Virus record (IMG/VR): IMGVR_UViG_3300045993_000189 | Coordinates: 1 to 31,029 of that record | Length of the DNA stretch: 31,029 nt | DNA from: a virus | Direction: 5' to 3' (one strand) | Part shown: positions 28,286 through 31,029 of the stretch, one piece after another | How the letters are laid out: each line of letters begins with the position of its first letter | Numbering within the stretch: position 1 is the first letter of the stretch | The notes under the pieces: generated by a model | Database searches by the model: none | Seen by the model: only the letters and a program-made list of their open reading frames with translations | Told to the model about the DNA's origin: nothing | Made by a program: the position numbers and the translations under genes

Positions 28286-28313
28286 ATTATATGTCGTTTT
28301 ATCTGTCTGTCAA
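28286..28313 (-). promoter_or_regulatory. Near-consensus sigma70 promoter, leftward
   Basis: On the minus strand TTGACA (28313-28308) and TATAAT (28291-28286) are both perfect and are separated by 16 bases. The start point should be near 28279, giving a 35-base leader to ATG 28244. Nothing else in the window is as close to consensus, so host RNA polymerase probably starts here at high level. Confidence 0.88.
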
Positions 28314-28498: not shown

Positions 28499-28586
28499 AT
28501 TCTGCCTTCTTTCTAGTATCTATTGAATTCTATCGTTTACTGGATGATGATTCTATTTTCTCCTTCCTGTTGCCCATTATACGCCT

Positions 28587-28604: not shown

Positions 28605-28715
28605 TATTTTTCCCAGTTAAATTATAATATTCTATCTCCAGCAATCCCGTTAAGTATTACAGATTCTAATTATATCTGCCACTTTTGCTTAACATTGAAC
28701 AGACTTTTATTAGAA

Positions 28716-28737
28716 GCGACAGAATCTAACCTATTTC
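28716..28737 (+). repeat. 22-bp direct repeat, copy 1
   Basis: A 22-base sequence starting GCGACAGAA and ending CTAACCTATTTC is repeated at 29374-29395 with a single mismatch (T/G at position 10). The second copy forms the inner edge of the right-hand inverted-repeat arm. Confidence 0.85.
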
Positions 28738-28945
28738 CAAGTGTTGTTTTTATACCAAGCAATATTCTAGAAATTCATAGGTTCTAATATAAAACTCGCT
28801 CCCGCAATGCCATATGGACGCAGTGACATATTACTTTTTAAATACAGTAGATTCTAACTTCTCATTCAAATAGGCTATATTCCCTTATAAATACTCTATT
28901 TTCTCCTCACTATTATCTGAAATTTCCATGCCGGATGTACGATAT

Positions 28946-29022
28946 TGCCTTTTTTGCCTATTATACCACTTTAGACCCCTATACCCCTGTACCCCCATCT
29001 GGGTGGAAATAGCCTATATTCT
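28946..29022 (-). repeat. Left arm of 77-bp G-tract inverted repeat
   Basis: Read leftward, this arm aligns without gaps to 29379-29455 read rightward; 54 of 77 bases agree by hand count. Conserved blocks are CTATTTC, GGGGGT, AGGGGT, AGGGGTC, ATAATAGGCA and a second AGGCA. The most variable stretch lies directly before the TATAAT. Confidence 0.85.
28960..28988 (-). promoter_or_regulatory. Promoter-like element in left arm (leftward)
   Basis: TATAAT (28965-28960) is preceded by TGG, giving an extended -10 (TGnTATAAT). Seventeen bases upstream, where a -35 box would lie, is AGGGGT (28988-28983). The same AGGGGT-N17-NATAATAGGCA layout occurs in the right arm. Confidence 0.5.
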
Positions 29023-29062
29023 ACGGGATAAGCTACTAGCTTCTATGAATGCTCCTTATAGA

Positions 29063-29098
29063 CTAGTGGATATCTCTTCTTGCTAGTGGATATCTCTT
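29063..29098. repeat. Paired direct repeat, 20-bp period (pair 1)
   Basis: CTAGTGGATATCTCTT occurs at 29063-29078 and 29083-29098, exactly 20 bp apart, 16 of 16 identical, with unrelated 4-bp spacers. Confidence 0.9.
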
Positions 29099-29212
29099 AA
29101 GGTATCTATATTTAGAGGATAGAATAGGGTGGTAGAAGAAAATGTATTTTAATTACCTATTTATATTTTTGTCTCATGATGTATAAGAACTCTTTATTTG
29201 GAGGACACAGGC

Positions 29213-29299
29213 ATGGAAGCGCATTATAACTTCCCCTTATACCTTATTGAGGAGCCTTATACCTTAGATTTACCCATAGGATTAGACTATTACCCATAG
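29213..29299 (+). CDS. Possible 28-codon leader peptide
   Basis: An ATG at 29213 has GGAGG eight bases upstream, the best ribosome-binding site in the region, and the frame stays open for 28 codons to TAG 29297. The peptide is acidic and rich in Pro, Leu and Tyr (PLYLIEEPYTLDLPIG). It overlaps two of the 20-bp-period repeat pairs, whose period is not a multiple of three, so they are not protein repeats. It may be a regulatory leader peptide or chance. Confidence 0.3.
   Translation: MEAHYNFPLYLIEEPYTLDLPIGLDYYP
29235..29266. repeat. Paired direct repeat, 20-bp period (pair 2)
   Basis: CCTTATACCTTA occurs at 29235-29246 and 29255-29266, 20 bp apart, identical in all 12 bases. Confidence 0.88.
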
Positions 29300-29302
29300 G
29301 AT
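29270..29302. repeat. Paired direct repeat, 20-bp period (pair 3)
   Basis: TTACCCATAGGAT occurs at 29270-29282 and 29290-29302, 20 bp apart, identical in all 13 bases, three bases after pair 2 ends. Confidence 0.88.
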
Positions 29303-29340
29303 ATTCTCGGGGAGCCTTCGGCACTGGCTAGGAGGGATAC

Positions 29341-29371
29341 TATTAGGAGCGATTACTAGATATTAGGAGCG
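29341..29371. repeat. Paired direct repeat, 20-bp period (pair 4)
   Basis: TATTAGGAGCG occurs at 29341-29351 and 29361-29371, 20 bp apart, identical in all 11 bases, just inside the right inverted-repeat arm. Confidence 0.88.
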
Positions 29372-29373
29372 TA

Positions 29374-29395
29374 GCGACAGAAGCTAACCTATTTC
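29374..29395 (+). repeat. 22-bp direct repeat, copy 2
   Basis: This is the partner of 28716-28737, with 21 of 22 bases identical. It overlaps the first 17 bases of the right inverted-repeat arm, so the far-left copy is a partial third copy of that element. Confidence 0.85.
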
Positions 29396-29455
29396 ACCCA
29401 AGTTGGGGGTGTAGGGGTGTAGGGGTCCTACCCACGATAATAGGCAGTTCAGGCA
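29379..29455 (+). repeat. Right arm of 77-bp G-tract inverted repeat
   Basis: Reads rightward with three G-tracts (GGGGGTGTAGGGGTGTAGGGG is split here as GGGGG, GGGG, GGGG at 4-base spacing) and ends ATAATAGGCA then AGGCA. It is 54/77 identical to the left arm on the opposite strand. The 356 bp between the arms contain all four 20-bp-period pairs. Confidence 0.85.
29413..29441 (+). promoter_or_regulatory. Promoter-like element in right arm (rightward)
   Basis: GATAAT (29436-29441) lies 17 bases downstream of AGGGGT (29413-29418), mirroring the left arm exactly. A start near 29449 would transcribe toward the rightward genes at 29698 and 29977. Confidence 0.42.
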
Positions 29456-29523
29456 GAATAGCATTATGGGATTCTAGTATTTAAATATTTTGGCATTTTG
29501 GCATTTTTGACGGGAAAAAATAG

Positions 29524-29664: not shown

Positions 29665-29979
29665 AATAGATACCAATAGAAACACATAAGGAATATTATG
29701 CTGACAATTAGACTTCCTGCAAGAACTGAAACTTCTGCTTTAACGGGTAAGATAGTAATTACAAAAGATGCTAGAGTGCAAGCAATAACAGAATCTGATG
29801 CTAGTAGGATACTGGCTGGCTATTTGGATAATAAGATTCCAATGCTAGTCTGGCTCAAAAATACTTATAATCTCGACTTGAGGGATGCTAAGGATATTTG
29901 TGACATTATCACCACTGGAGCCATTGTTAGGAGAAACTAGAATCCAATAGATACCAAAATATATACAAGGAATATTATG
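29665..29979 (+). promoter_or_regulatory. Duplicated gene leader with identical ribosome-binding sites
   Basis: AATAGATACCAA (29665-29676 and 29946-29957) followed about 20 bases later by AAGGAATATTATG precedes both rightward genes; the distance to ATG is 33 and 31 bases. The shared leader suggests common translational control or origin by duplication. Confidence 0.75.
29698..29940 (+). CDS. Small protein resembling the ribosomal L7/L12 C-terminal domain, 80 aa
   Basis: Residues about 49-72 (KIPMLVWLKNTYNLDLRDAK then DICD) line up with the L7/L12 CTD signature KVxVIKxVRxxTGLGLKEAKDLVE: the hydrophobic strand, the L-x-L before a charged pair and AKD are kept, while the G of the GLGL loop becomes N and D. 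Full L7/L12 has an N-terminal dimer domain and hinge; this protein instead has a basic beta-rich N-terminus. It is the first rightward gene of the early-looking unit, with AAGGA five bases before ATG 29698. Possible roles are binding a translation factor or a phage partner; no function is known to me. Confidence 0.7.
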   Translation: MLTIRLPARTETSALTGKIVITKDARVQAITESDASRILAGYLDNKIPMLVWLKNTYNLDLRDAKDICDIITTGAIVRRN

Positions 29980-31029
29980 TCAACCAATAATGATACTAAT
30001 ATGAATGCTCTAGCAGTGGCATTCGCGGAATCCTCTAAAAAGATAGAGTCTGGTATTAACCAAAGTTCTGTCAAAGACAAACAGAATGTCAATGGCTCTT
30101 CTAAGAAGGATAAGAATAAGAAGAATGGCTCAAAGGCTAAAATGGAAGGGACTAGCCTGTCCGCGAAATTACTAGAAGCTCCAGCGAAACACATAGCATA
30201 TAATGCTAAGACACAAAGAGTATCTAGAAGGCTTCTAATAGCCAAACATAATGAGATGATGACATGCGTCTGTGATGTTACTGGTATTGTATCTCTTCTT
30301 AATATTCCACTTATACCTTTGGCTTCTGGTGGAAAGAATCAGATTATCCTTACATGGAATAGTCCTCTATCTGAAGTAGATAATTGCCGTGGAATAGCTC
30401 AAGCTGGTGATTCTTATCTTAGACTCTTGGATACTCAGACTCTGGCAGGAATACTTATTGTCTTAGCTGACTCTTATTCTTTATTCAGATATCAGCCTTC
30501 TGACTCAGGAGCACAGAAGAACGCTATCCTTAGAACAGCAGGAAAGGATGTTATCATAAATACTATTCTGATAATTGAGGATTGGATAAATTCTGCCTCT
30601 GTTATTAGTGTACCGAAATTAAGTATGATAATGGATACCATCGTAGAAGAAGGTGGAATTGCTGCTAGGATTACTGAATGGCTTCGAATTGTTGTAGAGA
30701 TACTCTATAAGAAGGCTGAAGATAGAGTACAAGGTGAAGATGAGTTTCATAATGCTAAGCTTGTAAAGGTTGGAAAACCAGAATATATAAGCAAGCAGAA
30801 AGCAGCTCAGAACAAAGACAAGAAAGCACAGAAGTCTAAAGACTTTGCAAAGACTCAGGCTATATGGAAAGCTCAGAGAGAGTTCAAAGCAGACAAGAAA
30901 GTAGCAAAAGATCTGATAAATAAATTCGCATCAGAAGCTGGAATAACACCTAAACTCAAAGGTGTATTAGTATCTATCTTTACTGAAGATACTCTCTTGA
31001 CCTTGGATGCTATGACAAAGACAAGTTTT
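29977..31029 (+). CDS. Lysine-rich hypothetical protein, 3' truncated by window
   Basis: The frame opened by ATG 29977 (AAGGA five bases upstream) stays open to the last base, giving at least 351 residues. Residues 1-55 are Ser/Asn/Lys-rich and probably disordered (SSKKDKNKKNGSKAK). Residues about 88-105 contain TCVCDVTG, a CxC that could begin a metal site. Residues 130-230 are a helical domain with IAQAGDSYLRLLDTQTLAGI. Residues about 265-310 are a Lys/Gln-rich charged helix (KQKAAQNKDKKAQKSKDFAK). No enzymatic motif is seen. Position behind the early leader suggests a DNA-binding or replication-associated early protein, which is inference. Confidence 0.78.
   Translation, partial: MSTNNDTNMNALAVAFAESSKKIESGINQSSVKDKQNVNGSSKKDKNKKNGSKAKMEGTSLSAKLLEAPAKHIAYNAKTQRVSRRLLIAKHNEMMTCVCDVTGIVSLLNIPLIPLASGGKNQIILTWNSPLSEVDNCRGIAQAGDSYLRLLDTQTLAGILIVLADSYSLFRYQPSDSGAQKNAILRTAGKDVIINTILIIEDWINSASVISVPKLSMIMDTIVEEGGIAARITEWLRIVVEILYKKAEDRVQGEDEFHNAKLVKVGKPEYISKQKAAQNKDKKAQKSKDFAKTQAIWKAQREFKADKKVAKDLINKFASEAGITPKLKGVLVSIFTEDTLLTLDAMTKTSF

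Follow-up and report, generated by a model that had tools for sequence, protein, structure and literature searches.

Plasmid and lambdoid iteron origins usually have a single array of 17- to 22-bp iterons on one side and a recognizable Rep or O gene. In phage P4, the sites ori1 and crr lie kilobases apart, are bound by the alpha protein, and are both needed. Repeats are also found at packaging and partition sites: terminase small subunits are rings able to bind repeated sites, and in P1 and SPP1 repeats flank the packaging cut, while parC consists of arrays of about 10-bp repeats, with short tandem iterons in blocks. The haloarchaeal chromosomal origin oriC1 has an AT-rich region, a G-rich inverted repeat, and, outside that repeat, inverted initiator boxes (PMC3936714), and its described parts include inverted ORBs, G-strings, and an internal G-rich inverted repeat (PMC3936714, PMC4010727).

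Here we describe an element found at corresponding sites in about 20 diverged phages. We lean toward reading it as an origin of bidirectional replication in which paired iteron arrays flank an unwinding core. It resembles oriC1 in the arrangement of an AT-rich core, an inner G-rich inverted repeat, and outer inverted initiator boxes, and the box sequences of such origins likewise vary from one origin to another, each fitting its own initiator. It differs in having 9-bp tandem iterons in place of single ORBs, in an inner tract that is either G or C, and in belonging to phages of bacteria. An archaeal Orc1/Cdc6 origin was rejected and membership in the oriC1 class fails because the Orc1/Cdc6 C-terminal domain (Cdc6_C, PF09079) was absent in 12 of 12 genomes, with positive controls; we regard the likeness as one of layout only. 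With plasmid and lambdoid iteron origins, the element shares tandem direct repeats of a fixed period (here 9 bp), an AT-rich region adjoining them, and repeats specific to the replicon, but its 9-bp units form two inverted arrays, and no Rep was recognized. As in P4, short iterons occupy two separate sites (both required in P4), whereas the arrays of the element face outward around one core.

The window, by which we mean the whole stretch of DNA analyzed, is a 31,029-base virus record and covers part of a podovirus-type phage of about 43–45 kb. Its recognized genes encode a terminase, a portal, a head protein, a DHH phosphoesterase, and an 1844-aa protein whose counterpart in Polaromonas phage Tiera is annotated as structural. 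The window genes match those of Tiera (67% in the terminase) and EBPR podovirus 3 (56%), and the PaMx41/PaP2 group (Fredfastierviridae) is more distant (42%). The terminase of the window is common to 44 environmental loci. A relative of PaP2, Shea, is known to persist as an episome (PMC13348215). The inverted repeat is positioned in the sole large intergenic region, between early genes on the plus strand and late genes on the minus strand, and no ORF of at least 60 aa is found between its arms. With this, and with the recurrence of the element at the corresponding site of about 20 diverged phages, the arms are unlikely to be transposon ends.

We scored ungapped inverted repeats as matches minus mismatches, with dinucleotide shuffles as the control. 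The pair of gap-free 77-bp arms reported in a preliminary description of the window was confirmed (Table 1): it scores 31, in comparison with a mean of 13.0 and a maximum of 21 among 200 shuffles of the intergenic region, and is the strongest inverted repeat in the window, the runner-up in any 1.5-kb slice scoring 17. The three G-tracts described for each arm are real, and perfect copies of AGGGGT-N17-NATAATAGGCA occur in the window only at these two places. A third, partial copy proposed at 28582–28571 is at chance level: the window has 7 sites matching ATAATAGGCA with one mismatch, where 4.6 are expected. The description had also seen the pattern of protein-bound DNA in the arms and, judged by their sequence, they do look like paired, symmetric, protein-bound sites.

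Table 1. Positions of the element and its neighboring features in the window.
Feature	Position	Strand	Remarks
Conserved neighbor gene, phrog_15550 family, 197 aa	27351..27944	-	
First late-side ORF, 77 aa	28011..28244	-	No Pfam match
Perfect sigma-70 site, TTGACA-N16-TATAAT	28286..28313	-	12/12 consensus; upstream of first late-side ORF, outside element
Late-side 9-bp iteron array, TATAATAGG CAAAAAAGG CAATATCGT	28939..28965	-	Lag-9 P = 0.004; includes block first described as -10/start
Late-side arm, reads outward (leftward)	28946..29022	-	54/77 identical to other arm
Late-side G-tracts	28996-28992, 28987-28984, 28979-28976	-	5, 4, 4 G; 8-9 bp apart; inner side of iteron array
Core, 356 bp	29023..29378		Cores of relatives 144-427 bp
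Four direct-repeat pairs, CTAGTGGATATCTCTT, CCTTATACCTTA, TTACCCATAGGAT, TATTAGGAGC	29063..29370	+	Inside core; each pair spaced exactly 20 bp
Most AT-rich core stretch	29133..29192		34/40 A+T; proposed unwinding element
Early-side arm, reads outward (rightward)	29379..29455	+	54/77 identical to other arm
Early-side G-tracts	29405-29409, 29414-29417, 29422-29425	+	5, 4, 4 G; inner side of iteron array
Early-side 9-bp iteron array, GATAATAGG CAGTTCAGG CAGAATAGC	29436..29462	+	Lag-9 P = 0.096 alone; includes block first described as -10/start
Early gene, C-terminus lost at window end	29977..31029	+	Family in all relatives aligned

The outer part of each arm, beyond the G-tracts, is an array of 9-bp repeats that runs past the 77 bp and was missed in the preliminary description; NATAATAGGCA, described there as a -10/start block, consists of the first 9-bp unit and two further bases. 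The periodicity test was prompted by 9-bp units seen by eye, and its input was all arms of 20 genomes. In the pooled arms, the signal reached z = 12.6 at lag 9, z = 6.8 at lag 18, and z = 3.3 at lag 27; at lag 9 it was kept under shuffles preserving the A/T-G/C pattern (z = 9.5), and across the 20 genomes the lag-9 peak had no counterpart in the cores and was weak in the outside flanks. For the window, the two arms combined gave P = 0.0036, mostly from the late-side arm. Examples of the units in relatives are CGAACATAA CGAACATTG AGTACATCG in Tiera, GGTAATCGA GGTAATCGA GGTGATTCA in L073, and GGCATGATC GGCATGACC in L012, and in most relatives the inner side of the arms has a run of either G or C. 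Among other repeats, a perfect 72-bp tandem duplication at 43928–44072 of Tiera (L063) lies in the outward arm region and includes the G-tracts and part of the iteron array, and an 8-bp tandem repeat, ATTTTGGC, is found at 29487–29507 of the window, directly outside the early-side array. A 66-bp match to a Vibrio phage at 29465–29530 is AT-rich and has an unrelated context.

The equivalent region of the relatives was scanned in the same manner, with ungapped inverted repeats compared against dinucleotide shuffles. A repeat was listed for 22 regions (the window and 21 relatives), which represent fewer than 22 independent lineages since L011 and L013 are close to L010; 21 of them exceeded their own shuffle maximum and one (L073) equaled it. 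Several phages are related, and counts of genomes are not counts of independent events. The score was 36 against a shuffle maximum of 14 in L018, 27 against 17 in L084, 26 against 14 in L010, and 26 against 17 in L092, and only narrowly above the maximum in L012, L014, and L080. The repeat of L028 scored 17 ungapped (shuffle maximum 18) and 20 gapped; L007, L071, and PaMx41 have weak or gapped versions only, and the shuffle-controlled scan found no inverted repeat at the equivalent region of L082, L097, and L098. When whole loci were scanned (10 loci and Tiera), the element was the top spaced repeat in each, the next best usually scoring 13–17.

The arm sequences are matched inside one phage and unlike across lineages: the arm-to-arm score averaged 22 within genomes and 13.5 between genomes, the between-genome exceptions being mostly related pairs such as L076/L077. 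Using the best repeat of each region introduces selection into the arm comparisons, which is countered by the shuffled controls, the comparison between genomes, and the scans of whole loci. The architecture is conserved in kind while the sequence is not, and both arms change in step between phages. The conserved phrog_15550 gene beside the element is inverted in L015, L028, PaMx41 (L064), and PaP2 (L066), and the element stays put. With this inversion, the element of L015 and L028 lies between two co-directional genes, yet it is kept; PaMx41 and PaP2 also have something similar between co-directional genes, with a left array of period 10 (P = 0.002), but the arrangement is statistically weak.

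Each core examined among the relatives contains a stretch with 32–37 A+T in 40 bases. In 16 of 21 genomes, against 4.1 expected, the core has a motif close to TTTATGTGTGTA with A/T-rich sequence after it; the window core fails the formal motif test, with TATACATCATGAGACAAAAATAT on the minus strand of its most AT-rich stretch being a weak counterpart. The window core has 127 lag-20 matches, above the maximum of 122 in 2000 shuffles, and this signal was not seen family-wide in the pooled relatives.

A symmetric replication origin whose G-rich strands can fold had been the second choice of the preliminary description. The origin is, in our judgment, the best reading of the element, while the folding was not borne out: no four-tract G-quadruplex motif (G-tracts of at least 3, loops up to 12) was found on either strand, and the tract on the outward strand is G in some relatives and C in others. 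We count in favor of the origin the recurrence of the layout in relatives despite its changing sequence, the paired 9-bp arrays, the AT-rich core with its motif, the non-promoter nature of the arms, the retention of the element between co-directional genes in L015 and L028, the likeness in layout to oriC1, the episomal persistence of Shea, and the near-complete contigs, whose breaks are scattered over many places and never fall within the element. In the mechanism that we propose, a phage-encoded initiator would assemble on each iteron array and bridge or strain the DNA between the two arrays; the AT-rich core would then melt, and one replisome would be loaded toward each side, moving the same way as early transcription on one side and late transcription on the other. 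Iterons may differ in sequence between phages because of coevolution with the cognate initiator. Base skew shows a switch, or a cumulative minimum or maximum, close to the element in several genomes. In L015, L028, and PaMx41, however, it tracks the coding strand, so replication and transcription are not separated and we do not use skew as origin evidence. A DnaA-dependent oriC was rejected, as one perfect DnaA box against 1.1 expected is no excess, and so was a structured RNA, with no Rfam match up to E 0.5.

Symmetric binding for another purpose would look alike. The arms could be paired operator or enhancer arrays, where a phage regulator binds both 9-bp arrays, loops the core, and times early and late sigma-70 transcription; we consider this unlikely. 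Repressor/operator pairs typically show fast-changing, self-matched sites such as these, the element lies between the early and late units in most relatives with sigma-70-type promoters outside it, and in L023 and L028 a promoter begins 2–14 bp past the early-side arm. Sigma-70 scores average 10.5 beyond the late-side arm, the shuffles averaging 8.75, and the sites lie at +9 to +632 bp. The perfect sigma-70 site of the window, read in the direction 28313–28286 and more than 600 bp from the arm, is probably the late promoter of this phage, and the same arrangement, with a late-side promoter outside the element, is found in most relatives. The variation in the arm-to-promoter distance, from about 9 to 632 bp, argues against a role as operators, as does the retention of the element in L015 and L028, where inversion of one flanking gene removes the need for a promoter on that side; the AT-rich core with its own motif would also be left unexplained. 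Words resembling AGATTCTAAY come back at intervals of about 60 bp in the stretch that separates the late promoter from the late-side arm (28661–28857).

A pac site, with the terminase small subunit wrapping the DNA on both arrays and cutting between them as in P1 or SPP1, appears improbable. Repeats lie on either side of a central site in these pac sites too, and terminase rings could bind the arrays; the element is about 1.5–2 kb from the terminase genes, and it is within this region that the records of PaP2 and PaMx41 happen to begin. Packaging runs in one direction, however, and has no need of two equal arrays in inverted orientation; the P1 and SPP1 sites have no conserved AT-rich motif core, and that of the element is left unexplained. 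The contig breakpoints, many and outside the element, argue against a fixed physical end in it and not against headful packaging, as a permuted headful phage would show likewise.

The preliminary description had favored divergent promoters with a nonstandard -35 box, and AGGGGT-N17-NATAAT is indeed present in both arms of the window phage. This now seems very doubtful: promoter scores within the arms of 21 genomes were 5.85 in comparison with 5.4–6.1 in shuffles, sigma-70 -35/-10 pairs in the arms were not above the shuffled background, and a perfect sigma-70 promoter is found elsewhere. A search of relatives for the AGGGGT/NATAATAGGCA pair, a check named in that description, found it absent in those retrieved, which in part refutes the description by its own standard, although the architecture is nonetheless conserved. 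A block that looks like a -10 box when a single genome is read can turn out to be a different sort of repeat unit. A partition centromere of the ParR/parC type, which would serve episomal persistence as seen in Shea and which the short tandem iterons in two blocks resemble, is similarly far-fetched, as no adjacent ParM/ParR or TubZ/TubR gene was recognized among the annotated or scanned neighbors and parC repeats are direct whereas those of the element are inverted.

Returning to the replication origin, we infer that the protein binding the arms would be an initiator and not a terminase, a repressor, or a partition protein. The search for such an initiator found neighboring conserved proteins without a known fold or family, and the product of the early gene at 29977..31029 can be named, speculatively, as a candidate arm-binding protein. 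Together with its homologues, it forms a conserved early protein of 350–480 aa with a conserved C-x2-TG motif. No known domain was found in it in the Pfam comparison, and neither the truncated protein nor an 80-aa ORF retrieved relatives when used as a query. For both the 435-aa early protein and the protein of the phrog_15550 family, structures modeled with AlphaFold from input in which the rows from named phage records were left out had no match in the PDB. More tentatively, the element could represent an undescribed class of phage origin, with two outward-facing 9-bp iteron arrays, inner G/C tracts, a conserved AT-rich motif, iterons replaced jointly in both arms, and an initiator of no known family, the 29977 protein being one candidate.

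In the open-access literature, we found no origin or initiator for Tiera, EBPR podovirus 3, PaMx41/PaP2, or the environmental relatives. The element would be the first candidate origin for a little-studied phage group, and it is precisely placed. Since the two arms vary jointly under a constant layout, the phages provide a natural series for the coevolution of an initiator and its DNA site. An oriC1-like layout without the oriC1 initiator would, if true, be a case of convergence.
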